Source of the DNA: Isoetes taiwanensis
Lineage: Eukaryota; Streptophyta; Lycopodiopsida; Isoetales; Isoetaceae
Length of the DNA: 64,000 bases
Assembly (NCBI GenBank): GCA_021234155.1
Contig: JAJEKV010000035.1
Coordinates: 3,672,224-3,736,223 of the forward strand
Direction of reading: 5' to 3'
In this document: piece after piece, positions 8,655 through 44,177 of the stretch
How the letters are laid out: every line of letters starts with the position of its first letter
Position numbering within the stretch: position 1 is the first letter of the stretch
Program-made: the position numbers and the translations under genes
The notes under the pieces: generated by a model
Database searches by the model: none
The model's input: the letters and a program-made list of their open reading frames with translations, nothing else
Told to the model about the DNA's origin: nothing

Positions 8655-8668
8655 CCTGCGAAATTCCA

Positions 8669-8685
8669 TGGAGAGGACCATGTGT
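8669..8685. repeat. LINE target-site duplication, 5' side
   Basis: Exact 17-bp partner of 2964-2980. The minisatellite resumes with ACCCGGGTTCGAAG immediately after it. Confidence 0.92.
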
Positions 8686-9308
8686 ACCCGGGTTCGAAGT
8701 CCACTTCCACTATGATCAAATTTTATTTTCCTAGGTTAAGGAGTGGCTTGTTCAAGGGCACAGTCGGCTCCACCTAGAGTGGAGAGGATCACGTACCCGG
8801 GTTCAAGTCGACTTCGACTTGTTATTTGTTAGGTCTAAAATAAAATTGTAGTGGCTTGTTCAAGGGCATGGTCGGCTCCACCTTGCGTGGAGAGGACCAG
8901 GTGTCCGGGTCCAAGACCACTTTTCTTCTCATTCTTAGGTAGATGTGGCTACGGCAAGGACATGGTCGGCTCCACCGCGAGTGGGGGGGACCAGGTGTTC
9001 GGGCCTTAGTTCACGTTTATTGTCAGTTTTAGCTAGAGGTAGCTAGGGCAAAGATATGGTCGGCTCCACCATGAGTGGAGGGGACCAGATGTTCGGGCCC
9101 TAGTCCCACATTTCTTATTTTTTTTTTTAGGTAGAGGTGGCTAGGGAAAGGGCATGGTCGGCTCCACCATGAGTGGGGAGGACCACGTGTTCGGGTCCTA
9201 ATCATACTCTAGCCTAATCCAAATTGATCTAATCTAGTCTATCTAGCTTATTCCATCAGTCCAAAGCCTCCTCTATTATCTAGCCAAATCTAGCTTTTGA
9301 TCCGAGTA

Positions 9309-19201: not shown

Positions 19202-19330
19202 CCTAGACGTCGCATGCGACGTATCCACGTGGCCTTTTTATTGCCACGTGGATTTTGAATTACACGTGGCTTTCTTTAATTACACGTGGATTTTCAATTT
19301 TTCTTTACTTGACGTCGCATGCGACGTATA
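19202..19330 (+). other. Candidate right subterminal region of the CACTA-like element
   Basis: The palindrome ACGTCGCATGCGACGT occurs at about 19206 and 19311. Between them lie four copies of CACGTGGCTT/CACGTGGATTTT-like units. A poly-T-rich run precedes it. No terminal CACTA or TAGTG is seen: at 19330 the sequence switches abruptly into Helitron interior, so this end is probably truncated. Confidence 0.45.
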
Positions 19331-19974
19331 CACAAGGTTGGAGCAAGTAGCTGGACATTATTGAGAATATAGCAGTTGCTTGGGAGCCTAAATCCAGCTT
19401 CTGGTAGATAATCACATCTATGGCAGTGGTATCATTTGGCGTTACTATCTGCACTACTACAGTTCTTCTGAGTTGGATAGGTAGTGCTACGGCAGAAGTA
19501 TGATTTGGGGTGCATCATTGGAGAAGAATCTGTGCTGTTATACCCAAGGATCACATCATTTTTCTATGAAGTTCTTGGATGTGAATTTTACTTGGTGGTG
19601 AATTCCATAATCATGTTGGATAGAATCTTTAGCAGGTCCATTTTTGAAGGCCCATATAAATTTATGCTATTACTTATGTGCAGCAACACTGAGCACACGT
19701 TTATTAGGGTGATACCTTGAGCATAAGTTTTGGATCTGTCTTTCTAAATTTTCGACTTTAGAGGTAGATTTAACTGCCCCCCACATTCCTTACAAAGCAG
19801 TATTTTTTTACTAAAATCCATGTACGCATAGTTAATACATTTGTGATACTGAATTAGACAAGTTCAATAACAAGATAATTACAAAAATAAATAATATTCA
19901 TTCTTACAAATATCAATATGCATTATTGTCGAAGTTGCACATATGGACATTAAAGGCTGAGGTTGCATTACTAG
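19330..19974 (+). mobile_element. Helitron unit 0: truncated, internally deleted, lacking the end hairpin
   Basis: The sequence from ACACAAGG matches the interior of the complete units (for example from about 29214). After GTTCTTGGATGT (about 19581) it jumps to the GGTGGTGAATTCC block near the 3' end, a deletion of about 1.6 kb. The 3' end keeps TTACTAG but has lost the GCCCGGC-AAC-GCCGGGC hairpin and neighbouring bases: AAAGGCTGAG runs straight to GTTGCATTACTAG. The next unit follows directly at 19975. Confidence 0.85.
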
Positions 19975-22917
19975 TCTACTTATTTAAAAAGTTTTTGGGG
20001 TGGGGTGTCTCCCTTTTTTCGGCCGCCGATAACACTCCATTTTCCGGCCAAAAGCGTGATTTTGGAATCGGAATTGGCACGGAATTATTTTTGGACGACG
20101 AAGCTTTTCCCCATACCCTAAAAATGCTTTTCCTTTACTTCTTTGCATGGCGACCGTTTCAGTCCTCCCCGAAAAATGATTCTTATGGGCGGAGGGTTTT
20201 AGTCCCAATGATTTTCAAAGGATTTATGTAGTCGCCAATCGCCTTCATCTTCAAACGGTTCCCAGTTCAACGATCTTTCGACTAGACATGTGCTTCAATT
20301 GGAGGCAATTGTTGGGCACGTTCTAAATCCTGATTCAAGGATCAACCCATTTTGCGGGTAGTACAACAACTAAATTATTTTCATCGGCTTTTGCAACTCT
20401 TTGGATTGCCTTTGTCCAAGATATGGCATGGGATTGTCCTCTACTTTCCATCTATTGTTTTTCTTTTCTTTTTTTTAAAAGATGGTCTCAGAAATTGCGG
20501 TAGAAATTGGAGGAGCAGATCCAGGGGAAATCGTCACATCCATCGGGCATTCTTATTTCCGGAGGGATCGCCAAGCAGTTCCGCCTAAACCATTACCATC
20601 CTTCTATTCTATATCATGCTTATCGATGGAGAAGAACACAAGGAGGCCGGAGCCGCTCACCAAGTGCCATTTCATTCTCTGCTAATCTCACTCTCATTCT
20701 ATGTAAGGGAAGGCCATAGCAAGCGGTTGATACGGTGCCATTAAGTAGAGTTCTAGACCATTGTTATTCATAATCGCCTGTGGTTGGTGCATATAACATT
20801 CTGTCTAGATCTGTACCTTTAAAGTGTGGTCACATCTTCTTTGAAAGTGGATACCATATTGTGATGTTAGGGCCTGGAGGAACCAGGAGTTGCAATATCA
20901 AAGCTAGATAGCAAAGATCGTGCAAAGCAAAACGCATGCAAGTTTGAGTCCATATAACCATTTATATGAATAAACAATATGGATTTTGTGGCCTTATTCC
21001 TTTGAAAAGTCACGATAATGTTTATTATTGCATCTTGCAATCCTTCATTACAATAGTTGATGTCCATTGCTATGCATATGTAGGCCCTCCTAATAGGAAA
21101 TGCTATGCATATGTAGGCCCTCCTAATAGGAAAGTAGAGCTAGCAAGCAAGCGGCAAGAGATTTCACTAAATCAAAGGAGCTTGGAGATGGAAAAATCGC
21201 TGCACTTTCCTTATATAATTTTTCTTCTTTATTTGTTGTATTTTTCGAGAAGGAAAGAAACCTAATGTTTTCCTCGATCATGCGTAAGCAAATGGATCCT
21301 TCTCGAGGGTTTTTTTTTTTTCAAATCATTGGGAGCTTGGGTTTGGAAATGGGAATGCTTCTTGCTTCTTGCTTCCTTTTGATCAGGGGTCAGTATGTTT
21401 CGACGTTTTTGGATTTTTTTTCTCTCTTTTAAGAGTTTTTCTTTGCCCAGGTTACTTTGCTCGGGAATCATTTGAAGCTTCTTACCATGATATGATTACC
21501 ATTTTCCATCGTTTACTTTCCCGAGAGCAATGGCTAATTTCTTGGACTTTTTTTGGCCGCCAGAAAGCACTTGGCTCCAAACAGAGCATCCTAGAAAGCA
21601 TCTACATGCTTCATTTCTTCTATTGAGCACTCGTTCCAGATTTGAGCTTGATGATTGCGTGTAAATTTTGTAAGGACTTAAAAGAAGTGCCATACTTTGC
21701 TCTAAAGCATTCACTTTTTAATAAAGGTCCGCAAATTTGATTCCCGAATTACGTGATTACGCTTTGCAAAAATCCAATAGTTTAATTGTGGCAGGAGTCT
21801 GGGCTCGTGCAATTCCGAAGATGTTGGGACACAAGGCTGGAGCAAGTAGCTGGACATTATTGAGAATATAGCGGTTGCTTGGGAGCCTAAATCCAACCGG
21901 GTAGATAATCACATCTATGGCGGTGGTATCATTTGGCATTACTATCGCACTACTACTGCTTCTTCCGAGTTGGATAGGTAGTGCTACTGCTGAAGTATGA
22001 TTTGGGGTGCATCATTGGAGAAGAATCTGTCTGTTATACCCAAGGATCACATCATTTTTCTATGAAGTTCTTGGATGTATACAATCGGTGTGTGCAAATC
22101 TTTGGAAATTGTCCATACTATGGTTTGATTCTCGTACATACAATAGGTATGATATACAATTTTGTTTTCCGGTGCTTTTGGAGGATTTTCGGTCGTTAAT
22201 TTGCATTTATTTACTTGGTTGCGAGGGAATAAGACCGGAATGCCGGACTAAAAAAAATTCATGTTGCCGGGGAGGATATCTTTACTTCACGCTTCTTCTT
22301 TGAGATTGTGGCAAATGCTAACATATAGAATGAAGATCAATATCTTGAGCAATTGTTCATCAATTGAGTCTATCAATTGTTGTTTTTGAAGCGAGATCAA
22401 TTTCGAATTGTTCATAAAAAAACCCAACATCATGGTTGCTTCAAGATATCGGCATTCAAATGGCATTTCAAATCAAGGTAGTCTTGGCCTTTTTCTTGCA
22501 CTTCATTTAGCCATGTCAAATTTATATGGTTAGTAAACCGATCTAGCCCATATGTTGAAAGAGTATTTAGGTTGTTTAAGGAGCCGTTATTCTACTGATG
22601 ATTGGTATCATGAATGTTCATGTCCGTTAAGCCACATTTGTACCTTTATTTAAAGCCACATGTAAGAGTACATCTCAAACCAGCATGCACACACGGGGCA
22701 AGATTAAATATCTATATGCTTGGAAAAAATGACATATCTAGGATGCATCATGTTGTAGGTGTGACAATGTTACACTGCACATATGAATATTATGATTTAC
22801 TGGATTCCATATACTTACAGAAATGGATCTTGCAGTATTTGAGACACGGTGCTTGCAAAAAGCAGATTGAAGAAGTTAGCAAAATTCCTGGGCAACAAAC
22901 GTTTTATAAGTTCTAAG

Positions 22918-23364
22918 CAACCAACATAACTACTATTAACATTAATTAACACAAACCATTACATTCAACATGTTTAAATTAAAATCCCCCTAAAACCCCC
23001 TTTGGTTTGGGTGCATATTCACACGGGGGGTGACTCCGGGCAACGAGAGCTGTTGGATAGGCATATTCATCCCTTATTCCTTAATCTACACCGTACACAA
23101 AGTTCCTCATTTGTGGGGTATAGATGTACAAAATTTGCTATACTGTATAACAAGATTCGCAAAATACTATAAGATTTGAGATAATATACTATATGGTGTT
23201 GATTTTGTACATGCAAAACATAATTATAGGGGCTCTCGCTCTCCCCCACGTCACCCCCGTGAAATATGCACCCAAACCAAAGGGGGTTTTAGGGGGATTT
23301 TAATTTAAACATGTTGAATGTAATGGTTTGTGTTAATTAATGTTAATAGTAGTTATGTTGGTTG
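22918..23364. mobile_element. MITE with ~115-bp terminal inverted repeats
   Basis: The left arm starting CAACCAACATAACTACTATT is the near-perfect reverse complement of the right arm ending at 23364. Differences are limited to a few positions near the inner end (CACGGGGGGTGAC versus CACGGGGGTGAC). The centre is about 215 bp with no gene. It sits at the left junction of the extra cargo of unit 1. The target duplication is unclear. A GGGCCC-TTC-GGGCCC hairpin follows at about 23385-23400. Confidence 0.85.
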
Positions 23365-23642
23365 TTACATTAAAAAAAAATTTTGGGCCCTTCGGGCCCC
23401 AAAAGAAGCAAACATAAATAAACTTTGAGGTAAACAAGAAAATAAAAATACAAAATAAACTTTGAGGTAAACAGGAAAATAAAAATACAAAATGAATGAT
23501 GTGTTATTGCAAACCATATATTTTAAATTGCCACATGTGATGAGAAGTGTCAACTGAGTTAGCCAATAGCGACGAAAGCTTCGACATCATAATTTGCCTC
23601 ACGCTAGTATATTGCATTCTAAACTGATGATAATAATAAAGA

Positions 23643-23848
23643 TCATTTGCAGCCCTTGCTTGTGCACTTGTATACTTTTGAAAAGAATAATTTCCGTGAG
23701 ACCATTCGACCTTTCCATCGGTATTCTGATCAGAATAGAAAGTCATCATTTGCAGCCCTTGCTTGTGCACTTGTATACTTTTGAAAAGAATAATTTCCGT
23801 GAGACCATTCGACCTTTCCATCGGTATCCTGATCAGAATAGAAAGTCA
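23643..23848. repeat. 103-bp tandem duplication in the unit 1 cargo
   Basis: Two adjacent copies beginning CATCATTTGCAGCCCTTGCT (the first with GATCATTTGCAG) run to AGAATAGAAAGT. In reverse they encode an open stretch with HGNYSFQKYTSAQARAAND in each copy, so part of an unrecognised exon is duplicated. A 37-bp tandem duplication (AATAAACTTTGAGGTAAACA) lies just left, near 23413-23488. Confidence 0.8.
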
Positions 23849-23989
23849 CAGCTTTTAAAGAAAATCTTTCTGAAACAATGTTATCAGGCTCTGCCTCATG
23901 CCCATAAACTCTTCCAACATCTCCAACTTGCCTCATTTTTATCTACATCGCCATACTTGAGAGAGGAATCAGCCCTTCAATCCAAATAT

Positions 23990-26049
23990 ATTTAACCATA
24001 GCACTTTGCAATGCAACAAGGAGCACAGCTACCGTAAATTCTGCGACTTGAATTGAATCTGAAATATTTCCAAAAAGGCCTGCTTCTTTGTACATTTCCA
24101 GCACAAAGGCTACACAGGAACCCAATCATCCTTTTCAGGTATGGTGAGAATTTGTCCAAACGAAACACCGCACATCTCACCTTCTTTAATTATGTCAGGA
24201 AGATATAGTCCCTGATTGAAACAGCAGAACATAAGCAATCAACATAGTACTATAGGACTGATGCTGTAAATGAAGGCATGTAGCACCTCTGTCCCAGTCT
24301 TTTGTTAAGAGCCTCATTCCACATATTCGCTGCATAATGAGGTTGCAACCGGGTCGACGCAGAAGAAGCCTGAGGGCAACCCGAAAAAAATGAACTCTAT
24401 AAATGCGGGTATACGATCATATTTTACTACACTCGTTTATTAAAAACCCGAAAGTATAAAATCGATATGAAAAAGAGGTATTTTACCAAGTTGGAATCCA
24501 AGGGAGACGGGTAGTTGCCATCCAAAGTGTCAATCCAAAATAAAGATCATATTATGATAACCATAAGGTTTGCCATCCATGCTACGTGCATATTGCCGGC
24601 AAAGAAATATGATTAAACTTTGCCCTCAAATCAAACGTAGTAGTAATAATGCAACATGAGAGTCTCGGGGATCATTGACTTGTTGAGTCCACCAATCGTC
24701 CCTAGGATAGAACCGCAATTATTTTTTCACCCTTCACATGTGACAAATGAAGATTAAAGACGGATAAAACGTGAGAACCAAACTTCTTTTGTCTATGCAA
24801 TACTTTTCGTTTCTCCAACCCGAGGTTTCCATCTTCATCTCTCGAGGCACACTTGCTGTCCCGCATATGCACCAGGTCACCCATTTTTCTAATGTTTCAA
24901 ACCCACCCCAAATGCCTCAGTATTTTAGACATGGCGAAAAGTCACCGGATGAATATCGGCGGCCGCTATAATTGGTTCTGAGTTGTGGGCGTTTCTCAAA
25001 CGAGGCACCCGTATGCTTTTTCAAAACTCAATGTTGGCGGTTTCTCCCCATCCAATTATTAGAAAAGATAGGTAATGCATCCCAAAGAGCCACTAAAGTA
25101 CCCAACATCCCCTTTCTTTCATCAAGAATATAGAAATGCCTTTACGCTTCACACTGCCTGAAAGTGGCGATTTTTCGATGACTGATGATAACAAATCTTA
25201 AACATTGATGAGGAGACCACTCATTCTCTCCTTCTTGCCATTCTTTGATGGAAAATGAGTGCTTGCATGCGATGAAATAATAATCCCGGCTCACACGATA
25301 TGGTGTTGCAAAATGTACAAGTCCATGCAAGTCCGGCTATGAGGCTTATTAGTGTGCAAAAACAAAATGTTTGTAAGCTTGTGAATCCTTACATAGTATG
25401 GCCTAAAACGAATTGACCCCAGTATTAGGGAAAGTCAATACTTGAATTAGAAACTAGCTTTTGTGTGGCGACAAAAAAATAAAAGTTTATGAAGCCCACC
25501 AGATGTAGAGAACTCCACCACCGGTTTAGTTGGCACTTCGGGTTGGTGAATTCCATCCAAGCCCGATTCTCGTAAAAGCACGCACCTTTCCATTCGTTTG
25601 AACTATTGTTCTTCTCATCATCAGAAACCGCAGCCAGAAATTGAGGCAATAAATCCAAAGCACTGTGCAATTTATTTACAAGGGGCCAAGAGACGGAGTG
25701 AGACAAAAGGGGCAATACATACATCCCGGGGATGGAAGAGGTAGGGCAATTCTGTTTCAAAACCAAGTCCAAGGACACAAAAAGGCAAAAGTATTGGGAA
25801 GGCTAATATGATCACAAGACCTGGTCGCGCGCCATAGCCAGGTCTTGCTTGAATGGATCTCCGCTTCCATAGCCAGGAAGTTAAGGAATATTCAGGCGAA
25901 CTAGGAGACGTCGGGGATCCGTGTGGGGGACGGTTAGGATGGCCCGTTGAATAGCTTGGAGTGTGTTCAACGATTGAAGATGCTTTATTTTTGTCCACCC
26001 ACCACAAAAACGCCTCCACCACAGGATTTGTCCCATTTTCTAAAATCAA
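23990..26049 (-). pseudogene. Captured gene: conserved plant membrane protein of unknown function, frame-broken
   Basis: Minus-strand pieces lie in order over 2 kb. Near 25850-25690 is a hydrophobic N-terminal segment (GLVIILAFPILLPFCVLGL) leading to SHSVSWPLVNKLHSALDLL and FLAAVSDDEK. Near 25590 is NEWKGACFYENRAWMEF. Near 25325 is FATPYRVSRDYYFIACKHSF. Then come SIFLM (25140), a WGGFETLEKWV-like block, DEDGNLG, and DGKPYG. After an intron-like gap with a GTAAAA donor and a CCCTCAG acceptor come YAANMWNEALNKRLG (24335-24290), CGVSFGQILTIPEKDDW, and CVAFVLEMYKEAGLFGNISD. I recognise the block order as that of a conserved, widely distributed plant protein of unknown function but cannot name it. 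Several frames are needed to read through. Many breaks fall where CAG or CTG would be expected, so some may be sequence errors. It is present only in Helitron unit 1. Confidence 0.65.
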
Positions 26050-27321
26050 CGGCTAACAAAAGGGTGCACTCTAGAAATACTATTTAGTACGCCTGGATGA
26101 ATACGGCCACCAAATCATATGAAAACCTTAGAGAAAACAGTATAAAAACAGAAAAAAACCCCCTGTTATAATGCTACATATTATAACAAAAATTAGATTG
26201 TTTATGGCATGTGCCACCTTCGTATACTTGCAAAGGTTGCAAAGGTTAGAATATATGGTGGATTGTCTATGACAGATTGTTTGCTACATGGACCCTTTAC
26301 TACAATTACTTCATTCCTGTATTCAAATACCCCCATATAGAAACTAATGTCTTACTTGGGTCTTACTTTTGGTCTTACTTTTGTTTGTATGTTTAAATAT
26401 GCAATACCACATCTCCTTTGCATTTATACGACTATAAGCGTTGAATCCGTAAACCTATATGGGCAAGGATACAGAATGCTATGATAAGTACAGAATAATG
26501 ATGTGCGGATTATTTTGTGATGTGTTCACTATTTTGTGATGTGTGAATGCCCATGTGCCATTACGGCCGATGATTGCACATGGTTTGTGGCGAAAGGGTA
26601 TCACAATCGTTACTGGCCAGAAGGGTATTACAATCGTTACTGGTTGGAATTGGTATGAGAAAGAAGAAAGAAATTGATGGTGCATATAATGCACATGTCT
26701 TGCAAGGTTTTGAGATGCTTTATGTCTATATTGACCTAAGAGGGGTCCTAATGACATTTGCTTACTATAGATACAACAACTAACCTTTATAGATCATGGC
26801 CCCAATCCACACCATTACAATCAAAAGCGCATTACAATTGACAAATATCACTTTATATTTTATGCACGAAACTCTCGAATACAAAAAGATTGGCAACTTA
26901 TGGTACAAGACTCACAAGTGCAAGTTTTTGGTGGTGAATTCCATAATCATGTTGGATAGAATCTTTAGCAGTCCATTTTTTTGAAGGCCCATATAAATTT
27001 ATGCTATTACTTATGTGCAGCAACACTGAGCACACGTTTATTAGGGTGATATCTTGAGCATAAGTTTTGGATCTGTCTTTCTAAATTTTCGACTTTAGAG
27101 GTAGATTTAACTGCCCCCCACATTCCTTACAAAGCAGTATTTTTTTACTAAAATCCATGTACGCATAGTTAATACATTTGTGATACTGAATTAGACAAGT
27201 TCAATAACAAGATAATTACAAAAATAAATAATATTCATTCTTACAAATATCAATATGCATTATTGTCGAAGTTGCACATATGGACATTAAAGGCTGAGTA
27301 AAAATAGATGACAGAACATTA

Positions 27322-27338
27322 GCCCGGCAACGCCGGGC
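27322..27338 (+). other. Helitron unit 1 terminal hairpin
   Basis: GCCCGGC-AAC-GCCGGGC, a 7-bp perfect stem, ten to thirteen bases before CTAG at 27348-27351. In Helitrons this hairpin is thought to signal termination of rolling-circle strand transfer. Confidence 0.9.
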
Positions 27339-27351
27339 ACACGTTTACTAG

Positions 27352-30300
27352 TCTACTTATTTAAAAAGTTTTTGGGGTGGGATGTCTCCCTTTTTCCAGC
27401 CGCCGGTAACACTCCATTTTCCGGCCAAAAGCGTGATTTTGGAATCGGAAATGGCACGGAATTATTTTTGGACGACGAAGCTTTTCCCCATACCCTAAAA
27501 ATGCTTTTCCTTTACTTCTTTGCATGGCGACCGTTTCAGTCCTCCCCGAAAAATGATTCTTATGGGCGGAGGGGTTTTAGTCCCAATGATTTTCAAAGGA
27601 TTTATGTAGTCGCCACCGCCTTCATCTTCAAACGGTTCCCAGCGCTGATCTTTCTGACTAGACATGTGCTTCAATTGGAGGCAATTGTTGGGCACGTTCT
27701 AAATGCCGGATTCAAGGAGCATCAACCCATTTTGCAGGTAGTACAACAACTAAATTATTTTCATCGGCTTTTGCAACTCTTTGGATTGCACTGTCCAAGA
27801 TATGGCATGGGATTGTCCTCTACTTTCCATCTATTGTTTTTTCTTTCTTTTTTTGTTAAAGATGGTCTGTAAATTGCAGGTAGAAATTGGAGGAGCAGAT
27901 CCAGGGGGAAATCGTCACATCCATCAGGCATTCTTATTTCCAGAGGGATCGCTGCGCAGGTCTGCCTAAACCATTACCATCCTTCTATTCTATATCATGC
28001 TTATCTGATGGAGAAGAACACAAGGAGTGCTGGAGCCGCTCACCAGTGTGCCATTTCATTCTCTGCTAATCTCACTCTCATTCTATGTAAGGGAAGGCCA
28101 TAGCAAGCAGTTGATACGGTGCCATTCGTAGAGTTCTAGACCATTGTTATTCATAATCGCTTCAGGGTTGGTGCATATAACATTCTGTCTAGATCTGTAC
28201 CTTTAAAGTGTGGCTGCATCTTGCTGAAAGTGGATACCATATTGTGATGTTAGGGCCTGGAGGAACCAGGAGTTGCAGTATCAAAGCTAGATAGCAGCAT
28301 CAGGCAAAGCAAAACGCATGCAAGTTTGAGTCCATATAACCATTTATATGAATAAACAATATGGATTTTGTGGCCTTATTCCTTTGAAAAGTCACGATAA
28401 TGTTTATTATTGCATCTTGCAATCCTTCATTACAATAGTTGATGTCCATTGCTATGCATATGTAGGCCCTCCTAATAGGAAATGCTATGCATATGTAGGC
28501 CCTCCTAATAGGAAAGTAGAGCTAGCAAGCAAGCGGCAAGAGATTTCACTAAATCAAAGGAGCTTGAAGATGGAAAAATCGCTGCACTTTCCTTATATAA
28601 TTTTTCTTCTTTATTTGTTGTATTTTCGGAGAAGGAAAGAAACCTAATGTTTTCCTCTGATGCAGAAGCAAATGGATCCTTCTGAGGGTTTTTTTTCGCA
28701 AATCATTGGGAGCTTGGGTTTGGAAATGGGAATGCTTCTTGCTTCTTGCTTCCTTTTGATGCAGGGCTGTATGTTTCTGACGTTTTTGGATTTTTTTTTA
28801 TCTCTCTTTTAAGAGTTTTCTTTGCCCAGGTTACTTTGCTCAGAATCATTTGAAGCTTCTTACCATGATATGATTACCATTTTCCATCGTTTACTTTCCG
28901 GAGCAATGGCTAATTTCTTGGACTTTTTTTTGGCCGGCAGAAAGCACTTGGCTCCAAACAGAGCATCCTAGAAAGCATCTACATGCTTCATTTCTTCTAT
29001 TGAGCACTCTGTTCCAGATTTGAGCTTGATGATTGCGTGTAAATTTTGTAAGGACTTAAAAGAAGTGCCATACTTTGCTCTAAAGCATTCAGCTTTTTTA
29101 ATAAAGGTCTGCAAATTTGATTCCTGAATTACGTGATTCTGCTTTGCAAAAAATCCAATAGTTTAATTGTGAGCAGGAGCTGGGCTCAGGCAATTCCAGC
29201 ATGTTGGGACACAAGGCTGGAGCAAGTAGCTGGACATTATTGAGAATATAGCAGTTGCTTGGGAGCCTAAATCCAGCTTCTGGTAGATAATCACATCTAT
29301 GGCAGTGGTATCATTTGGCATTACTATCTGCACTACTACAGTTCTTCTGAGTTGGATAGGTAGTGCTACGGCTGAAGTATGATTTGGGGTGCATCATTGG
29401 AGAAGAATCTGTGCTGTTATACCCAAGGATCACATCATTTTTCTATGAAGTTCTTGGATGTATACAATCAGTGTGCAAATACTGGAAATTGTCCATACTA
29501 TGGTTTGATTCTGTACATACAATAGGTATGATATACAATTTTGTTTCCCAGTGCTTTTGGAGGATTTTCAGTCGTTAATTTGCATTTATTTACTTGGTTG
29601 CAGTAGGAATAAGACCGGAATGCCAGACTAAAAAAAATTCATGTTGCCAGGAGGATATCTTTACTTCACGCTTCTTCTTTGAGATTGTGGCAAATGCTAA
29701 CATATAGAATGAAGATCAATATCTTGAGCAATTGTTCATCAATTGAGTCTATCAATTGTTGTTTTTGAAGCAGATCAATTTCTGGAATTGTTCATAAAAA
29801 AACCAGCATCATGGTTAGTTCTGAAGATATCGGCATTCAAATGGCATTTCGTCAAGGTAGTGCTGGCCTTTTCTTGCACTTCATTTAGCCATGTCAAATT
29901 TATATGGTTAGTAGACTGATCTAGCCCATATGTTGAAAGAGTATTTAGGTTGTTTAAGGAGCCGTTATTCTACAGACTGATTGGTATCATGAATGTTCAT
30001 GTCCGTTAAGCCACATTTGTACCTTTGCGAAAGCCACATGTAAGAGTACATCTCAAACCAGCATGCACACACGGGGCAAGATTAAATATCTATATGCTTG
30101 GGAAAAATGACATATCTAGGATGCATCATGTTGTAGGTGTGACAATGTTACACTGCACATATGAATATTATGATTTACTGGATTCCATATACTTACAGAA
30201 ATGGATCTTGCAGTATTTGAGACACGGTGCTTGCAAAAAGCAGATTGAAGAAGTTAGCAAAATTCCTGGGCAACAAACGTTTTATAAGTTCTAAGCAATT

Positions 30301-31485
30301 TAGTTGCAAGGACACTTAATATAACAAAAATTAGATTGTTTATGGCATGTGCCACCTTCGTATACTTGCAAAGGTTGCAAAGGTTAGAATATATGGTGGA
30401 TTGTCTATGACAGATTGTTTGCTACATGGACCCTTTACTACAATTACTTCATTCCTGTATTCAAATACCCCCATATAGAAACTAATGTCTTACTTGGGTC
30501 TTACTTTTGGTCTTACTTTTGTTTGTATGTTTAAATATGCAATACCGCATCTCCTTTGCATTTATACGACTATAAGCGTTGAATCCGTAAACCTATATGG
30601 GCAAGGATACAGAATGCTATGATAAGTACAGAATAATGATGTGCGGATTATTTTGTGATGTGTTCACTATTTTGTGATGTGTGAATGCCCATGTGCCATT
30701 ACGCTGATGATTGCACATGGTTTGTGGCCGAAGGGTATCACAATCGTTCTCGGCGTAAGGGTATTACAATCGTTCTTGGTTGGAATTGGTATGAGAAAGA
30801 AGAAAGAAATTGATGGTGCATATAATGCACATGTCTTGCAAGGTTTTGAGATGCTTTATGTCTATATTGACCTAAGAGGGGTCCTAATGACATTTGCTTA
30901 CTATAGATACAACAACTAACCTTTATAGATCATGGCCCCAATCCACACCATTACAATCAAAAGCGCATTACAATTGACAAATATCACTTTATATTTTATG
31001 CACGAAACTCTCGAATACAAAAGATTGGCAACTTATGGTACAAGACTCACAAGTGCAAGTTTTTGGTGGTGAATTCCATAATCATGTTGGATAGAATCTT
31101 TAGCAGGTCCATTTTTGAAGGCCCATATAAATTTATGCTATTACTTATGTGCAGCAACACTGAGCACACGTTTATTAGGGTGATATCTTGAGCATAAGTT
31201 TTGGATCTGTCTTTCTAAATTTTCGACTTTAGAGGTAGATTTAACTGCCCCCCACATTCCTTACAAAGCAGTATTTTTTTACTAAAATCCATGTACGCAT
31301 AGTTAATACATTTGTGATACTGAATTAGACAAGTTCAATAACAAGATAATTACAAAAATAAATAATATTCATTCTTACAAATATCAATATGCATTATTGT
31401 CGAAGTTGCACATATGGGCATTAAAGGCTGAGTAAAAATAGATGACAGAACATTAGCCCGGCAACGCCGGGCACACGTTTACTAG
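27352..31485 (+). mobile_element. Helitron unit 2 (4134 bp)
   Basis: It starts with TC immediately after the CTAG of unit 1 and ends with an intact hairpin (31456-31472) and CTAG. The first 3 kb keep CAG and CTG trinucleotides at many positions where units 1, 3, 4 and 5 have altered bases. This unit is therefore the best guide to the underlying sequence, although it has its own altered site near 30753-30775. No recognisable protein. Confidence 0.92.
31456..31472 (+). other. Helitron unit 2 terminal hairpin
   Basis: Identical 17-base hairpin to that of unit 1, followed by ACACGTTTACTAG and directly by unit 3. Confidence 0.9.
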
Positions 31486-34400
31486 TCTACTTATTTAAAA
31501 AGTTTTTGGGGTGGGGTGTCTCCCTTTTTCCGGCCGCCGATAACACTCCATTTTCCGGCCAAAAGCGTGATTTTGGAATCGGAAATGGCACGGAATTATT
31601 TTTGGACGACGAAGCTTTTCCCCATACCCTAAAAATGCTTTTCCTTTACTTCTTTGCATGGCGACCGTTTCAAATCCTCCCGAAAAAATGATTCTTATGG
31701 GCGGAGGGGTTTTAGTCCCAATGATTTTCAAAGGATTTATGTAGTCGCCACCGCCTTCATCTTCAAACGGTTCCCAGCGCACGATCTTTTCGACTAGACA
31801 TGTGCTTCAATTGGAGGCAATTGTTGGGCACGTTCTAAATGCCTGATTCAAGGAGCATCAACCCATTTTGCGGTAGTACAACAACTAAATTATTTTCATC
31901 GGCTTTTGCAACTCTTTGGATTGCAATCGTCCCAAGATATGGCATGGGATTGTCCTCTACTTTCCATCTATTGTTTTTTCTTTCTTTTTTGTTAAAGATG
32001 GTCTCAGAAATTGCGGTGTAGAAATTGGAGGAGCAGATCCGGGGAAATCGTCCACATCCATCGGGCATTCTTATTTCCAGAGGGATCGCCGCTTGTGTCC
32101 GCCTAAACCATTACCATCCTTCTATTCTATATCATGCTTATCGATGGAGAAGAACACAAGGAGTGCCGGAGCCACTCACCACTCGTGCCATTTCATTCTC
32201 TGCTAATCTCACTCTCATTCTATGTAAGGGAAGGCCATAGCAAGCGAGTTGATACGGTTGCCATTCAGAGAGTTCTAGACCATTGTTATTCATAATCGCC
32301 TGTGGGGTTGGTGCATATAACATTCTCGTCTAGATCTGTACCTTTAAAGTAAGTCGATCTTCTTGAAAGTGGATACCATATTGTGATGTTAGGGCCTGGA
32401 GGAACCGAGGAGTTGCAATATCAAAGCTAGATAGCAAAGATCGTGCAAAGCAAAACGCATGCAAGTTTGAGTCCATATAACCATTTATATGAATAAACAA
32501 TATGGATTTTGTGGCCTTATTCCTTTGAAAAGTCACGATAATGTTTATTATTGCATCTTGCAATCCTTCATTACAATAGTTGATGTCCATTGCTATGCAT
32601 ATGTAGGCCCTCCTAATAGGAAATGCTATGCATATGTAGGCCCTCCTAATAGGAAAGTAGAGCTAGCAAGCAAGCGGCAAGAGATTTCACTAAATCAAAG
32701 GAGCTTGAAGATGGAAAAATCACGCACTTTCCTTATATAATTTTTCTTCTTTATTTGTTGTATTTTCTGAGAAGGAAAGAAACCTAATGTTTTCCTCCCG
32801 ATGCGTAAGCAAATGGATCCTTCGAGGGGTTTTTTTCGCAAATCATTGGGAGCTTGGGTTTGGAAATGGGAATGCTTCTTGCTTTCTTTTGATGCGAGGG
32901 GTCAGTATGTTTCGGCGTTTTTGGATTTTTTATCTCTCTTTTAAAGAGTTTTCTTTTGCCAGGTTACTTTGCTCGAGAATCATTTGAAGCTTCTTACCAT
33001 GATATGATTACCATTTTCCATCGTTTACTTTTTCGAGCAATGGCTAATTTCTTGGACTTTTTTTTTGCCTAAGAGAAAGCACTTGGCTCCAAACAGAGCA
33101 TCCTAGAAAGCATCTACATGCTTCATTTCTTCTATTGAGCACTCGTTCGTTTGAGCTTGATGATTGCGTGTAAATTTTGTAAGGACTTAAAAGAAGTGCC
33201 ATACTTTGCTCTAAAGCATTCAAATTTTTTAATAAAGGTCTGCAAATTTGATTCCCGAATTACGTGATTCTCGCTTTGCAAAAATCCAATAGTTTAATTG
33301 TGAGCGGAGTCGGGCTCGAGGCAATTCCAAAGATGTTGGGACACAAGGTCGGAGCAAGTAGTCGGACATTATTGAGAATATAGCGATTGCTTGGGAGCCT
33401 AAATCCAACCGGTAGATAATCACATCTATGGCAAGTGGTATCATTTGGCATTACTATCCGCACTACTACGCTTCTTCCGAGTTGGATAGGTAGTGCTACT
33501 GGCTGAAGTATGATTTGGGGTGCATCATTGGAGAAGAATTGCGTCTTTGTTATACCCAAGGATCACATCATTTTTCTATGAAGTTCTTGGATGTATACAA
33601 TCGATTATTGCAAATATCGAAATTGTCCATACTATGGTTTGATTCTCAGTACATACAATAGGTATGATATACAATTTTGTTTCCCGGTGCTTTTGGAGGA
33701 TTTTCACGTTAATTTGCATTTATTTACTTGGTTGCAGTGGGAATAAGACCGGAATGCCGACTAAAAAAAAATTCATGTTGCCGGGAGGATATCTTTACTT
33801 CACGCTTCTTCTTTGAGATTGTGGCAAATGCTAACATATAGAATGAAGATCAATATCTTGAGCAATTGTTCATCAATTGAGTCTATCAATTGTTGTTTTT
33901 GAAGCAGATCAATTTCTGAATTGTTCATAAAAAAACAAAGATCATGGTTGCTTCAAGATATCGGCATTCAAATGGCATTTCGTCAAGGTAGTCTTTGGCC
34001 TTTTCTTGCACTTCATTTAGCCATGTCAAATTTATATGGTTAGTAGACCGATCTAGCCCATATGTTGAAAGAGTATTTAGGTTGTTTAAGGAGCCGTTAT
34101 TCTACTGACCGATTGGTATCATGAATGTTCATGTCCGTTAAGCCACATTTGTACCTTTGCGAAAAGCCACATGTAAGAGTACATCTCAAACCAAAGATGC
34201 ACACACGGGGCAAGATTAAATATCTATATGCTTGGGAAAAATGACATATCTAGGATGCATCATGTTGTAGGTGTGACAATGTTACACCGCACATATGAAT
34301 ATTATGATTTATTGGATTCCATATACTTACGTAAATGGATCTTGCGAAAGATTTGAGACACGGTGCTTGCAAAAAGCAGATTGAAGAAGTTAGCAAAATT

Positions 34401-35592
34401 CCTGGGCAACAAACGTTTTATAAGTTCTAAGCAATTTAGTTGCAAGGACACTTAATATAACAAAAATTAGATTGTTTATGGCATGTGCCACCTTCGTATA
34501 CTTGCAAAGGTTGCAAAGGTTAGAATATATGGTGGATTGTCTATGACAGATTGTTTGCTACATGGACCCTTTACTACAATTACTTCATTCCTGTATTCAA
34601 ATACCCCCATATAGAAACTAATGTCCTTTTGTTTGTATGTTTAAATATGCAATACCACATCTCCTTTGCATTTATACGACTATAAGCGTTGAATCCGTAA
34701 ACCTATATGGCAAGGATACAGAATGCTATGATAAGTACAGAATAATGATGTGCGGATTATTTTGTGATGTGTTCACTATTTTGTGATGTGTGAATGCCCA
34801 TGTGCCATTCTGGCCGATGATTGCACATGGTTTGTGGCCGAAGGGTATCACAATCGTTACTGGCCAGAAGGGTATTACAATCGTTACTGGTTGGAATTGG
34901 TATGAGAAAGAAGAAAGAAATTGATGGTGCATATAATGCACATGTCTTGCAAGGTTTTGAGATGCTTTATGTCTATATTGACCTAAGAGGGGTCCTAATG
35001 ACATTTGCTTACTATAGATACAACAACTAACCTTTATAGATCATGGCCCCAATCCACACCATTACAATCAAAAGCGCATTACAATTGACAAATATCACTT
35101 TATATTTTATGCACGAAACTCTCGAATACAAAAGATTGGCAACTTATGGTACAAGACTCACAAGTGCAAGTTTTGGTGGTGAATTCCATAATCATGTTGG
35201 ATAGAATCTTTAGCAGTCCATTTTTGAAGGCCCATATAAATTTATGCTATTACTTATGTGCAAAAAACACCGAGCACACGCGTTTATTAGGGTGATATCT
35301 TGAGCATAAGTTTTGGATCTGTCTTTTCTAAATTTTCGACTTTAGAGGTAGATTTAATCACCCCACATTCCTTACAAAGCAGTTTTTTTTACTAAAATCC
35401 ATGTACGCGATAGTTAATACATTTGTGATAATGAATTAGACAAGTTCAATAACAAGATAATTACAAAAATAAATAATATTCATTCTTACAAATATCAATA
35501 TGCATTATTGTCGGTTGCACATATGGACATTAAAGGTCGAGTAAAAATAGATGACAACATTAGCCCGACAACGCCGCACACACGCTTACTAG
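31486..35592 (+). mobile_element. Helitron unit 3 (4107 bp)
   Basis: Same order as unit 2. A short deletion near 34624 removes one of the TTACTTTTGGTC-type repeats. The terminal hairpin is damaged (GCCCGACAACGCCGC at 35563-35577), and the end reads ACACGCTTACTAG. It carries many altered CAG/CTG sites. Confidence 0.92.
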
Positions 35593-38500
35593 TCTACTTA
35601 TTTAAAAAGTTTTGGGGTGGGGTGTCTCCTTTTTCCGGCGGCCGATAACACTCCATTTTCCGCCAAAAACGTGATTTTGGAATCGGAAATGGCACGGAAT
35701 TATTTTTGGACGACCAAGCTTTTCCCCATACCCTAAAAATGCTTTTCCTTTACTTCTTTGCATGGCGACCGTTTGATCCTCCCCAAAAAATGATTCTTAT
35801 GGGCGGAGGGTTTTTAGTCCCAATGATTTTCAAAGGATTTATGTAGTCGCCACCGCCTTCATCTTCAAACGGTTCCCGGCCACTGATCTTTTCTCGACTA
35901 GACATGTGCTTCAATTGGAGGCAATTGTTGGGCACGTTCTAAATGCCTGATTCAAGGAGCATCAACCCATTTTGCGGGTAGTACAACAACTAAATTATTT
36001 TCATCGGCTTTTGCAACTCTTTGGATTGCCTTTGTCCAAGATATGGCATGGGATTGTCCTCTACTTTCCATCTATTGTTTTTCTTTCTTTTTTTTTGTTA
36101 AAGATGGTCTCAAAATTGCGGGTAGAAATTGGAGGAGCAGATCCGTGGGGAAATCGTCACATCCATCGGGCATTCTTATTTCCGGAGGGATCGCCGCTGC
36201 AGTCTGCCTAAACCATTACCATCCTTCTATTCTATATCATGCTTATCGATGGAGAAGAACACAAGGAGTCTTGGAGCCGCTCACCACTGTGCCATTTCAT
36301 TCTCTCGCTAATCTCACTCTCATTCTATGTAAAGGAAGGCCATAGCAAGCGGTTGATACGGTGCCATTCGTAGAGTTCTAGACCATTGTTATTCATAATC
36401 GCCGGGGTTGGTGCATATAACATTCTGCCTAGATCTGTACCTTTAAAGTAAGCCGCATCTTCTTTGAAAGTGGATACCATATTGTGATGTTAGGGCTGGA
36501 GGAACCCGGGAGTTGCGATATCAAAGCTAGATAGCAGCATCAGGCAAAGCAAAACGCATGCAAGTTTGAGTCCATATAACCATTTATATGAATAAACAAT
36601 ATGGATTTTGTGGCCTTATTCCTTTGAAAAGTCACGATAATGTTTATTATTGCATCTTGCAATCCTTCATTACAATAGTTGATGTCCATTGCTATGCATA
36701 TGTAGGCCCTCCTAATAGGAAATGCTATGCATATGTAGGCCCTCCTAATAGGAAAGTAGAGCTAGCAAGCAAGCGGCAAGAGATTTCACTAAATCAAAGG
36801 AGCTTGAAGATGGAAAAATCACTTGCACTTTCCTTATATAATTTTTCTTCTTTATTTGTTGTATTTTCTGAGAAGGAAAGAAACCTAATGTTTTCCTCGA
36901 TCACGAAGCAAATGGATCCTTCTCGAGGGTTTTTTTCGCAAATCATTGGGAGCTTGGGTTTGGAAATGGGAATGCTTCTTGCTTTCTTTTGATGCACGGT
37001 CAGTATGTTTCGACGTTTTTGGATTTTTTTTATCTCTCTTTTAAGAGTTTTCTTTGCCAGTTACTTTGCTCGGAATCATTTGAAGCTTCTTACCATGATA
37101 TGATTACCATTTTCCATCGTTTACTTTTTTTCTGAGCAATGGCTAATTTCTTGGACTTTTTTGCCCTGAGAAAGCACTTGGCTCCAAACAGAGCATCCTA
37201 GAAAGCATCTACATGCTTCATTTCTTCTATTGAGCACTCGTTCCAGATTTGAGCTTGATGATTGCGTGTAAATTTTGTAAGGACTTAAAAAGAAGTGCCA
37301 TACTTTGCTCTAAAGCATTCAGCTTTTTAATAAAGGTCGCAAATTTGATTCCCGAATTACGTGATTCTCGCTTTGCAAAAAATCCAATAGTTTAATTGTG
37401 AGCGGGGGTGGGCTCGAGCAATTCCGAGATGTTGGGACACAAGGCTGGAGCAAGTAGTTGGACATTATTGAGAATATAGCGGTTTGCTTGGGAGCCTAAA
37501 TCCAACCGGTAGATAATCACATCTATGGCGGTGGTATCATTTGGCATTACTATCCGCACTACTACAGTTCTTCGAGTTGGATAGGTAGTGCTACGGCTGA
37601 AGTATGATTTGGGGTGCATCATTGGAGAAGAATCAGTGCTGTTATACCCAAGGATCACATCATTTTTCTATGAAGTTCTTGGATGTATACAATCGGTGTG
37701 CAAATCTTGGAAATTGTCCATACTATGGTTTGATTACGTACATACAATAGGTATGATATACAATTTTGTTTCCCGTGCTTTTGGAGGATTTTCAGTCGTT
37801 AATTTGCATTTATTTACTTGGTTGCGATGGGAATAAGACCGGAATGCCGGACTAAAAAAATTCATGTTGCCGGGAGGATATCTTTACTTCACGCTTCTTC
37901 TTTGAGATTGTGGCAAATGCTAACATATAGAATGAAGATCAATATCTTGAGCAATTGTTCATCAATTGAGTCTATCAATTGTTGTTTTTGAAGCGGATCA
38001 ATTTCTGGAATTGTTCATAAAAAAACCAAAGATCATGGTTGCTTCAAGATATCGGCATTCAAATGGCATTTCGTCAAGGTAGTCTTGGCCTTTTCTTGCA
38101 CTTCATTTAGCCATGTCAAATTTATATGGTTAGTAAACCCATCTAGCCCATATGTTGAAAGAGTATTTATGTTGTTTAAGGAGCCGTTATTCTACTGACT
38201 GATTGGTATCATGAATGTTCATGTCCGTTAAGCCACATTTGTACCTTTTTGAAAGCCACATGTAAGAGTACATCTCAAACCAAAGATGCACACACCTAAG
38301 CAAGATTAAATATCTATATGCTTGGAAAAAATGACATATCTAGGATGCATCATGTTGTAGGTGTGACAATGTTACACCGCACATATGAATATTATGATTT
38401 ATGGATTCCATATACTTACGAAAATGGATCTTGCAAGATTTTGAGACACGGTGCTTGCAAAAAGCAGATTGAAGAAGTTAGCAAAATTCCTGGGCAACAA

Positions 38501-39553
38501 ACGTTTTATAAGTTCTAAGCAATTTAGTTGCAAGGACACTTAATATAACAAAAATTAGATTGTTTATGGCATGTGCCAGCTTCGTATACTTGCAAAGGTT
38601 GCAAAGGTTAGAATATATGGTGGATTGTCTATGACAGATTGTTTGCTACATGGACCCTTTACTACAATTACTTCATTCCTGTATTCAAATACCCCCATGA
38701 ATAATGATGTGTGGATTATTTTGTGATGTGTTCACTATTTTGTGATGTGTGAATGCCCATGTGCCATTACGCTGATTATTGCACATGGTTTGTGGCCAGA
38801 AGGGTATCACAATCGTTACTGGCCAGAAGGGTATCACAATCGTTACTGGTTGGAATTGGTATGAGAAAGAAGAAAGAAATTGATGGTGCATATAATGCAC
38901 ATGTCTTGCAAGGTTTTGAGATGCTTTATGTCTATATTGACCTAAGAGGGGTCCTAATGACATTTGCTTACTATAGATACAACTAACCTTTATAGATCAT
39001 GGCCCCAATCCACACCATTACAATCAAAAGCACATTACAATTGACAAATATTACTTTATATTTTATGCATGAAGCTCTCGAATACAAAAGATTGGCAACT
39101 TATGGTACAAGACTCACAAGTGCAAGTTTTTGGTGGTGAATTCCATAATCATGTTGGATAGAATCTTTAGCAGGTCCATTTTTGAAGGCCCATACAAATT
39201 TATGCTATTACTTATGTGCAGCAACACTGAGCACACGTTTATTAGGGTGATATCTTGAGCATAAGTTTTCGATCTGTCTTTCTAAATTTTCAACTATAGA
39301 GGTAGATTTAACTGCCCCCCCACATTCCTTACAAAGCAGTATTTTTTTACTAAAGTCCATGTACGCATAGTTAATACATTTGTGATACTGAATTAGACAA
39401 GTTCAATAACAAGATAATTACAAAAATAAATAATATTCATTCTTACAAATATCAATATGCATTATTGTCGAAGTTGCACATATGGACATTAAAGGCTGAG
39501 TAAAAATAGATGACAGAACATTAGCCCGGCAACGCCGGGCACACGTTTACTAG
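35593..39553 (+). mobile_element. Helitron unit 4 (3961 bp)
   Basis: It matches unit 2, but with about 160 bp missing near 38697, where CAAATACCCCCAT runs straight to GAATAATGATGTG. The terminal hairpin at 39524-39540 is intact and CTAG abuts unit 5. Altered CAG/CTG sites are frequent. Confidence 0.92.
39524..39540 (+). other. Helitron unit 4 terminal hairpin
   Basis: Intact GCCCGGC-AAC-GCCGGGC followed by ACACGTTTACTAG. Confidence 0.9.
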
Positions 39554-42500
39554 TCTACTTATTTAAAAAGTTTTTGGGGTGGGGTGTCTCCCTTTTTCCG
39601 GCCGCCGGTAACACTCCATTTTCCGGCCAAAAGCGTGATTTTGGATTCGGAAATGGCACGGAATTATTTTTGGACGACGAAGCTTTTCCCCATACCCTAA
39701 AAATGCTTTTCCTTTACTTCTTTGCATGGCGACCGTTTCAGTCCTCCCCGAAAAATGATTCTTATGGGCGGAGGGGTTTTAGTCCCAATGATTTTCAAAG
39801 GATTTATGTAGTCGCCACCGCCTTCATCTTCAAAGCGGTTCCCAGCCCGATCTTTTCGACTAGACATGTGCTTCAATTGGAGGCAATTGTTGGGCACGTT
39901 CTAAATGCCCATTCAAGGAGCATCAACCCATTTTGCGGGTAGTACAACAACTAAATTATTTTCATCGGCTTTTGCAACTCTTTGGATTGCCTTTGTCAAG
40001 ATATGGCATGGGATTGTCCTCTACTTTCCATCTATTGTTTTTCTTTCTTTTTTGTTAAAGATGGTGCATGTAAATTGCGGGTAGAAATTGGAGGAGCGGA
40101 TCCGAGGGGAAATCGTCACATCCATCATGCATTCTTATTTCCGGAGGCATCGCCATTGCTTGAGTCTGCCTAAACCATTACCATCCTTCTATTCTATATC
40201 ATGCTTATCGATGGAGAAGAACACAAGGAGTCTTTGGAGCCGCTCACCCGGTGTGCCATTTCATTCTCTGCTAATCTCACTCTCATTCTATGTAAGGGAA
40301 GGCCATAGCAAGCGATTGATCTGATTGCCATTCGTAGAGTTCTAGACCATTGTTATTCATAATCGCTTTAGGGTTGGTGCATATAACATTACGTCTAGAT
40401 CTGTACCTTTAAAGTGTGGCTGCATCTTCTTTGAAAGTGGATACCATATTGTGATGTTAGGGCTGGAGGAACCCGGGAGTTGCGATATCAAAGCTAGATA
40501 GCAACATCGGGCAAAGCAAAACGCATGCAAGTTTGAGTCCATATAACCATTTATTATGAATAAACAATATGGATTTTGTGGCCTTATTCCTTTGAAAAGT
40601 CACGATAATGTTTATTATTGCATCTTGCAATCCTTCATTACAATAGTTGATGTCCATTGCTATGCATATGTAGGCCCTCCTAATAGGAAATGCTATGCAT
40701 ATGTAGGCCCTCCTAATAGGAAAGTAGAGCTAGCAAGCAAGCGGCAAGAGATTTCACTAAATCAAAGGAGCTTGGAGATGGAAAAATCGCTGCACTTTCC
40801 TTATATAATTTTTCTTCTTTATTTGTTGTATTTTCGGAGAAGGAAAGAAACCTAATGTTTTCCTCGATCAGGAAGCAAATGGATCCTTCGAGGGTTTTTT
40901 TTTCGCATATCATTGAGAGCTTGGGTTTGGAAATGGGAATGCTTCTTGCTTCTTGCTTCCTTTTGATCTGTTGGTATGTATGTTTCGGCGTTTTTGGATT
41001 TTTTTCTCTCTTTTAAGAGTTTTTCTTTGCCAGTTTACTTTGCTCGGAATCATTTGAAGCTTCTTACCATGATATGATTACCATTTTCCATCGTTTACTT
41101 TCCCGACAATGGCTAATTTCTTGGACTTTTTTGGCCCGGCCGAGAAAGCACTTGGCTCCAAACGAGCATCCTAGAAAGCATCTACATGCTTCATTTCTTC
41201 TATTGAGCACTCTGTTCCGTTTGAGCTTGATGATTGCGTGTAAATTTTGTAAGGACTTAAAAGAAGTGCCATACTTTGCTCTAAAGCATTCAGCTTTTTA
41301 ATAAAGGTCACGCAAATTTGATTCCCCTAATTACGTGATTACGCTTTTGCAAAAATCCAATAGTTTAATTGTGGCGGGGAGCTGGGCTCGAGCAATTCCA
41401 AAGATGTTGGGACACAAGGCTGGAGCAAGTAGGCGGACATTATTGAGAATATAGCGGTTGCTTGGGAGCCTAAATCCAAATTTCCGGTAGATAATCACAT
41501 CTATGGCGGTGGTATCATTTGGCATTACTATCTCTGCACTACTACGGTTCTTCCGAGTTGGATAGGTAGTGCTACTTTGAAGTATGATTTGGGGTGCATC
41601 ATTGGAGAAGAATGCGTGGTTTGTTATACCCAAGGATCACATCATTTTTCTATGAAGTTCTTGGATGTATACAATCGATTATTGCAAATCTTTGAAATTG
41701 TCCATACTATGGTTTGATTACGTACATACAATAGGTATGATATACAATTTTGTTTCGCAGTTGCTTTTGGAGGATTTTCAGGTCGTTAATTTGCATTTAT
41801 TTACTTGGTTGCGATAGGAATAAGACCGAATGCCGGACTAAAAAAAATTCATGTTGCCGGGAGGATATCTTTACTTCACGCTTCTTCTTTGAGATTGTGG
41901 CAAATGCTAACATATAGAATGAAGATCAATATCTTGAGCAATTGTTCATCAATTGAGTCTATCAATTGTTGTTTTGAAGCGGATCAATTTAAAATTGTTC
42001 ATAAAAAACCAAAGATCATGGTTAGTTCTCAAGATATCGGCATTCAAATGGCATTTCGTCAAAGGTAGTCTTGGCCTTTTCTTGCACTTCATTTAGCCAT
42101 GTCAAATTTATATGGTTAGTAGACTGATCTAGCCCATATGTTGAAAGAGTATTTAGGTTGTTTAAGGAGCCGTTATTCTACGGTGATTGGTATCATTTAT
42201 GTTCATGTCCGTTAAGCCACATTTGTACCTTTGCGAAAAAAGCCACATGTAAGAGTACATCTCAAACCAAAGATGCACACACGGGGCAAGATTAAATATC
42301 TATATGCTTGGGAAAAATGACATATCTAGGATGCATCATGTTGTAGGTGTGACAATGTTACACTTTGCACATATGAATATTATGATTTCTTGGATTCCAT
42401 ATACTTACGAAATGGATCTTGCAATATTTGAGACCGCGTGCTTGCAAAAAGCAGATTGAAGAAGTTAGCAAAATTCCTGGGCAACAAACGTTTTATAAGT

Positions 42501-43689
42501 TCTAAGCAATTTAGTTGCAAGGACACTTAATATAACAAAAATTAGATTGTTTATGGCATGTGCCACCTTCGTATACTTGCAAAGGTTAGAATATATGGTG
42601 GATTCTCTATGACAGATTGTTTGCTACATGGACCCTTTACTACAATTACTTCATTCATGTATTCAAATACCCCCATATAGAAACTAATGTCTTACTTGGG
42701 TCTTACTTTTGGTCTTACTTTTGTTTGTATGTTTAAATATGCAATACCACATCTCCTTTGCATTTATACGACTATAAGCGTTGAATCCGTAAACCTATAT
42801 GGGCAAGGATACAGAATGCTATGATAAGTACAGAATAATGATGTGCGGATTATTTTGTGATGTGTTCACTATTTTGTGATGTGTGAATGCCCATGTGCCA
42901 TTACGCTGATGATTGCACATGGTTTGTGGCCAGAAGGGTATCACAATCGTTACTGGCCAGAAGGGTATTACAATCGTTACTGGTTGGAATTGGTATGAGA
43001 AAGAAGAAAGAAATTGATGGTGCATATAATGCACATGTCTTGCAAGGTTTTGAGATGCTTTATGTCTATATTGACCTAAGAGGGGTCCTAATGACATTTG
43101 CTTACTATAGATACAACAACTAACCTTTATAGATCATGGCCCCAATCCACACCATTACAATCAAAAGCGCATTACAATTGACAAATATCACTTTATATTT
43201 TATGCACGAAACTCTCGAATACAAAAGATTGGCAACTTATGGTACAAGACTCACAAGTGCAAGTTTTTGGTGGTGAATTCCATAATCATGTTGGATAGAA
43301 TCTTTAGCAGGTCCATTTTTGAAGGCCCATATAAATTTATGCTATTACTTATGTGCAGCAACACTGAGCACACGTTTATTAGGGTGATATCTTGAGCATA
43401 AGTTTTGGATCTGTCTTTCTAAATTTTCGACTTTAGAGGTAGATTTAACTGCTTCCCACATTCCTTACAAAGCAGTATTTTTTTACTAAAATCCATGTAC
43501 GCATAGTTAATACATTTGTGATACTGAATTAGACAAATTCAATAACAAGATAATTACAAAAAAAAATAATATTCATTCTTACAAATATCAATATGCATTA
43601 TTGTCGAAGTTGCACATATGGACATTAAAGGCTGAGTAAAAATAGATGACAGAACATTAGCCCGGCAACGCCGGGCACACGTTTACTAG
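39554..43689 (+). mobile_element. Helitron unit 5 (4136 bp), last of the array
   Basis: Complete unit with TC start, intact hairpin (43660-43676) and CTAG at 43686-43689, followed by T, the expected 3' base of an A-T insertion site. Sequence beyond is unrelated to the unit, so the array ends here. A 6-9 bp loss near 42585 shortens the GCAAAGGTTGCAAAGG repeat. Confidence 0.92.
43660..43676 (+). other. Helitron unit 5 terminal hairpin
   Basis: Intact hairpin marking the right end of the tandem array. Confidence 0.9.
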
Positions 43690-44177
43690 TATATGGGATG
43701 ACGTTGGGAACCGTGCCTGGGAACGCCGCATGTTACGCCGCATGACATCTTGCGGTCTCTTGCAGGACGCGGGCTGGCAGCATTGATGGTCAGTTTTTGA
43801 ACTGGCCGAGGTTTGAATGCTGCGATATTCGGGAATAGTAATACGAATTATCCCCTGCTCTGCTCACGATTTATGGCGCTCAAGATCTCTCACGATTTTT
43901 TGACGCCCAAAGCTTGAGTGGGACGATTTTTTGGTGCTCAAGCTTGAGCTGGGTCGGTTGCCTTGGTTTGTATCAGACATTGGCAAAACCGTGATGGCAT
44001 CAACTGGGAAACTAACAAGCCTCAGTTCTTTTACCAGGCTAGCTTCTGCCAGAACCAAGGCCTCTGGATCTCTTCTCGACAACTGGGCAGGATTTTGCTG
44101 GGCAACTGGCCACGATTTCCAGCCGTGTTTGGTAAACCTCAAGCGTACGCTACCGTTTTCTTCATATGCTGCTAAGA
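43690..44177. other. Spacer between the Helitron array and Helitron 2
   Basis: About 490 bp without a recognised gene. It contains imperfect repeats of GCTCAAGATCTCTCACGATTTT / GCCCAAAGCTTGAGTGGGACGATTTT near 43878-43950. This is the only DNA separating the two Helitron insertions. Confidence 0.4.

Follow-up and report, generated by a model that had tools for sequence, protein, structure and literature searches.

The 64,000-bp window of Isoetes taiwanensis DNA analyzed here (G000:C1040:3672224-3736223, from a 1.66-Gb genome; unit coordinates are counted from the window start) contains a head-to-tail array of Helitrons that abut one another at exact CTAG|TC joins. We lean towards reading this array as a stack of separate non-autonomous Helitrons of one young subfamily, in which the founding joins would have been made by serial, strand-specific insertion at the ends of resident copies, followed by local recombination. 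More tentatively, the family as a whole might target itself, through a transposase that prefers the ends of resident copies in a strand-specific manner; roughly one in four of the family's 5’ ends lies directly behind another, often unrelated copy.

Structure of the array and apparent divergence of its units

The preliminary description of the window reported five consecutive units that follow one another without a spacer, preceded by a truncated unit. Reading the sequence, we found all five exact CTAG|TC joins at the places claimed, with no base between units, and the upstream truncated unit was borne out as well, being decayed and internally deleted. The features of the array are:

19330..19974, + strand: U0, decayed Helitron unit, starting at about unit position 1858, with an exact join to U1
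19971..19976, + strand: join U0|U1, CTAG|TC, boundary 19974/19975
19975..27351, + strand: U1, full-length non-autonomous Helitron (TC...CTAG), 7377 bp, or 4122 bp without its foreign insert
22921..26175, no strand assigned: insert in U1, 3.26 kb, in place of 15 bp of the unit
27348..27353, + strand: join U1|U2, CTAG|TC, boundary 27351/27352
27352..31485, + strand: U2, full-length unit, 4134 bp
31456..31472, + strand: 3’ hairpin of U2, GCCCGGC-AAC-GCCGGGC, 13 nt before the CTAG end
31482..31487, + strand: join U2|U3, CTAG|TC, boundary 31485/31486
31486..35592, + strand: U3, full-length unit, 4107 bp, with a 26-bp deletion
35589..35594, + strand: join U3|U4, CTAG|TC, boundary 35592/35593
35593..39553, + strand: U4, full-length unit, 3961 bp, with a 156-bp segment missing
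39550..39555, + strand: join U4|U5, CTAG|TC, boundary 39553/39554
39554..43689, + strand: U5, full-length unit, 4136 bp, ending in CTAG, then host T at 43690

U0 carries a large internal deletion and its 3’ hairpin is gone, although the terminal TTACTAG is retained. The host boundary 5’ of the array was lost along with U0.

The units have the ends of canonical Helitron1-like Helitrons, TC at the 5’ end and CTRR at the 3’ end: U1-U5 and about 1000 copies begin with TCTACTT... and finish with ...CTAG. The GC-rich hairpin that canonical Helitrons carry 10-15 nt before the 3’ end is also present: in U2, it consists of a 7-bp stem and an AAC loop (-9.6 kcal/mol folded as DNA, z -4.7), and the identical hairpin occurs in U1, U4 and U5, whereas that of U3 is degenerate. 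Judged from the bases flanking occupied sites, copies insert between A and T and produce no target-site duplication. No recognized domain is encoded by the units: six of the longer ORFs from U2 and the U1 insert yielded no Pfam match, and no Rfam family or tRNA was found. Helitron_like_N (RepHel, PF14214) domains were located, by domain position only, 3-6 kb from ends of the same family at several loci, including C974, C1055, C1071 and C1080, and share the strand of these ends; at C1055, two such domains lie in successive units. The U1 insert (22921-26175), among whose longer ORFs no protein family match was detected, contains internal 103-bp and 37-bp tandem repeats, and a target-site duplication is not evident.

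The raw identity between units is only about 96%, but this apparent divergence of ~4-5% is largely attributable to errors of the assembly at CG/CHG sites. In the unit alignment, 24% of the columns near CG/CHG motifs are variable, compared with 3.4% elsewhere, and in clean columns, more than 4-6 bp away from these motifs, the units are 99.3-99.8% identical. The differences come in clusters, as scrambled bases together with 1-bp indels, and fall at motifs that are the same in all units while the changes themselves differ per unit. Indels and three-state columns would not be expected from deamination; we infer long-read basecalling error at methylated cytosines that was left in the assembly, for which the platform is not stated. 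Unit ages derived from the raw identity were therefore rejected, and so was a stretch at unit positions 1024-1244, 100% identical among the units, as a candidate conserved element, given that it is simply poor in error-prone motifs. The real differences are few, comprising private indels of 15 bp (U1), 26 bp (U3), 9 bp (U5) and 3 bp (U4) and about 1-4 SNPs per unit. The apparent divergence of repeats in such an assembly can thus reflect basecalling error at methylated sites and is unfit for dating.

Frequency, orientation and partners of joins across the genome

The search for the same junction elsewhere, which the preliminary description had put forward as a check, returned 255 exact CTAG|TC joins genome-wide and none for the pattern controls; with up to 3 mismatches allowed, there are 406 joins, the control again being 0. 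Random A|T insertion would be expected to produce about 0.003 joins, taking AT to occur with a frequency of 0.09 per base, compared with the 255 exact ones, and the joins are thus far above chance. Among 952 exact 5’ ends in the 1.66-Gb genome, 672 follow A, 255 (27%) follow CTAG and 25 follow another sequence, such that 672 of the 697 ends not after CTAG are preceded by A. The expectation that Helitrons usually occur as single copies accordingly holds for most of the family but fails for roughly one 5’ end in four (255/952 joined). At the other end, 1082 of 1143 exact 3’ ends precede T and 61 do not, at most 23 of the exact 3’ ends having A next. When up to 2 mismatches are tolerated, the family comprises ~1100 5’ ends and 2040 3’ ends. 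In a sample of 30 5’ ends drawn in contig order, A precedes 19 and the final G of a CTAG or similar end precedes 11, and all 30 sampled 3’ ends precede T. Joins spaced by an A (CTAG-A-TC) numbered 0 in 98 loci. Separately, we observed a cluster of seven 3’ ends within 37 kb (C1059:2613794-2650317), all on the - strand and all with A in place of T, which is probably another tandem repeat containing the Helitron 3’ end.

These counts bear on whether the array is real. The many errors in repeats of this assembly, together with the close similarity of the units, would be in keeping with an array that had been expanded or misjoined from fewer true copies. We consider such an artefact highly improbable: individual units carry real private changes (indels of 15, 26, 156 and 9 bp and the 3.26-kb insert), and the exact join is found at 255 places spread over many contigs, in many cases with different elements on its two sides.

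All joins run in one direction. No head-to-head joins were detected genome-wide at up to 3 mismatches, versus 406 head-to-tail joins at the same tolerance. The AT dinucleotide is palindromic, so random use of A|T at a resident 5’ edge should yield the two orientations of join equally often. Long inverted repeats, when perfect, can vanish in cells or assemblies, but such loss should not erase every head-to-head case, because most neighbors have only their ends in common. The joins arise by a strand-specific process.

We compared joins at ~50 distinct loci over 1.5 kb per side, dividing them into same-subfamily and mixed-subfamily cases. Where elements of unrelated subfamilies are joined, they have little in common beyond the terminal tens of bases. 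Five junction pairs have the same left element with different right elements, four have the same right element with different left ones, and three are alike on both sides, one of these being 98% identical through the join and unrelated beyond +1182. This pattern of sharing implies that the joins are mostly combinatorial and that some dimers were moved or duplicated whole.

Unit lengths at other loci, derived from junction coordinates rather than from unit sequence, are equal in some arrays (4204, 4190, 4209 and 4204 bp at C317; 3473 and 3473 bp at C1053) and unequal in others (3972, 4442 and 4482 bp between host A and T at C638; also C907). Junction spacing on the - strand of C209:23375-72461 suggests alternating units of ~3.87 and ~4.92 kb (ABABAB), and one B apparently has an A-type copy inserted within it that points the other way (61829-65696, +). 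Join clusters recur with a period of ~30 kb at C1018:23411680-23475602 and of ~21 kb at C2:101892-127186, each a higher-order duplication spanning several units.

Unit ancestry and the probable origin of the array

The units of the array differ in ancestry. A 156-bp segment is present in U1, U2, U3, U5 and a dispersed copy on C1063. U4 lacks it, and so, at the identical place, do two dispersed copies, one on C70 and a more distant one on C952. U4 and the C70 copy additionally have ~10 SNPs in common, 4 of them at strictly clean sites. The C1063 copy, which directly follows an element of another subfamily, shows 0-3 clean differences in ~850 sites from U1, U2, U3 and U5, compared with 1-5 among those units themselves. 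Instead of being relatives of independent origin, the C70 or C1063 copies could themselves descend from units of the array.

These relationships bear directly on the proposal, made in the preliminary description, of rolling-circle read-through past the end hairpin. In its full form, a Helitron circle carrying the CTAG-TC join would be replicated by the rolling-circle mode past the 3’ end, and the multimer would be inserted in a single event. Helraiser indeed produces circles with exactly this join (PMC4778049), and a concatemer predicts the head-to-tail orientation that is observed and accounts for the restriction of the array to one subfamily as well as for the equal spacings at C317 and C1053. 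However, the 156-bp segment and SNP state of U4 set it off from its neighbors and are common to dispersed copies, a dispersed copy is as near to the units as they are to one another, and joins between different subfamilies are common. The ancestry of U4 and the closeness of the C1063 copy do not fit the pattern expected of one concatemer, so that the array is probably not a single rolling-circle concatemer that diverged later. As the sole source of the joins, read-through is disfavored by the distinct ancestry of U4 and by the many joins elsewhere that link unrelated subfamilies, and we regard the single-multimer explanation as quite unlikely.

Another alternative is that one or a few founding joins were multiplied by unequal crossing-over, or by homologous recombination of circles with resident copies, into near-identical units. 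Both routes would produce exact joins in one orientation, and the units are 99.3-99.8% identical in clean columns. U3 looks mosaic: its 5’ part has a 7-bp deletion and a SNP in common with U4, it is U4-like at unit positions 1244-1436, and further 3’ it resembles U1, U2 and U5, a small number of sites that suggests exchange between neighboring units. The 3.87/4.92-kb alternation at C209 and the periodic clusters on C2 and C1018 would fit as well. Nevertheless, recombination is unable to create joins between unrelated subfamilies and leaves the genome-wide commonness of joins unexplained, and we find it unlikely as the main explanation.

Serial insertion, the reading that we prefer, resembles the second proposal of the preliminary description, namely, repeated insertion exactly at the CTAG|T of an earlier copy. 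This idea fits the data better than read-through, but CTAG|T is not the only possible site, as host A|TC gives the same join. The Rep transposase of an autonomous relative would cleave or recognize the ends of resident copies and insert new copies precisely there, with a single strand orientation. The target could be the resident 5’ edge: insertion at host A|TC follows the A|T rule of the family and would yield an identical CTAG|TC join; since this A|TC edge would be re-made with each insertion, the stack could go on growing there. The alternative target would be the resident 3’ edge, CTAG|T, and solo insertions outside A|T are rare (25/952). Near-identical neighbors may recombine afterwards, and some dimers may move or be duplicated together. 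Homology-driven amplification probably added units where neighbors are alike, and may have done so in this window. The private changes per unit show no gradient from which a direction of growth could be read, the informative sites being too few.

Several observations count against serial insertion. All five units come from one rare subfamily, which would not be expected from random serial insertion out of ~1000 mixed copies unless this subfamily transposed in a burst. The arrays with equal (C317, C1053) or AB-alternating (C209) units point to local amplification, three junction pairs match on both sides, the 5’ host boundary, where an A would be expected, is lost, and the possible derivation of the C70 or C1063 copies from the array would weaken the case from ancestry.

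Head-to-tail Helitron joins were already known from maize and bats; what is added here is their frequency, their one-way orientation and the mixing of lineages. In maize, a pair of two different elements is joined exactly at CTAG|TC (G/T) with no A between, and consecutive insertion was inferred because the two elements differ; GT and AT (host A plus the T of TC) were proposed as target readings, and lines with the left element alone exist (Du et al. 2008, PMC2267711). The Isoetes joins are of the same sequence and present the same two target options, but where maize offers one pair, we find five full units at one locus and 255 exact or 406 near-exact joins, none of them head-to-head. In Myotis lucifugus, tandem Helibats likewise have full ends in perfect head-to-tail joins and were read as rolling-circle tandem repeats (Pritham and Feschotte 2007, as recounted in PMC2267711); in contrast, unit ancestry and mixed joins in Isoetes speak against a single concatemer. 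Plant Helitrons in tandem also form centromeric arrays, which the account in PMC12628747 describes as rolling-circle-amplified and composed of units that are truncated, many of them having several 5’ ends but a single 3’ end (Xiong et al. 2016), whereas U1-U5 have both ends and, in four of the five, the full hairpin (degenerate in U3). The circles of Helraiser are an extrachromosomal intermediate, and local hopping was not seen in that system (Grabundzija et al. 2016, PMC4778049); their junction has the same CTAG-TC sequence, which here occurs in a genomic array instead.

Whether tandem Helitrons originate as concatemers or by consecutive insertion has been a question ever since they were described in bats and maize. 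The exact joins of this family, which number in the hundreds, lack any head-to-head case and often link subfamilies, make target preference, strand choice and the side of growth countable in one genome. The arrays also illustrate a route by which non-satellite DNA can become tandem and then, through recombination, enter higher-order repeats.

Other elements in the window

Outside the array, the window contains a non-LTR retrotransposon (LINE-like; 4146-8681, - strand) with a 769-aa ORF containing a reverse transcriptase and a 636-aa ORF containing DUF4283. By the 5’ end of this element lies a tandem repeat of a 94-bp unit in 3.6 copies (8861-9200). The remains of a Ty3/gypsy-type retrotransposon, with a gag containing a zinc knuckle and a reverse transcriptase, occupy 57448-60004 on the + strand.
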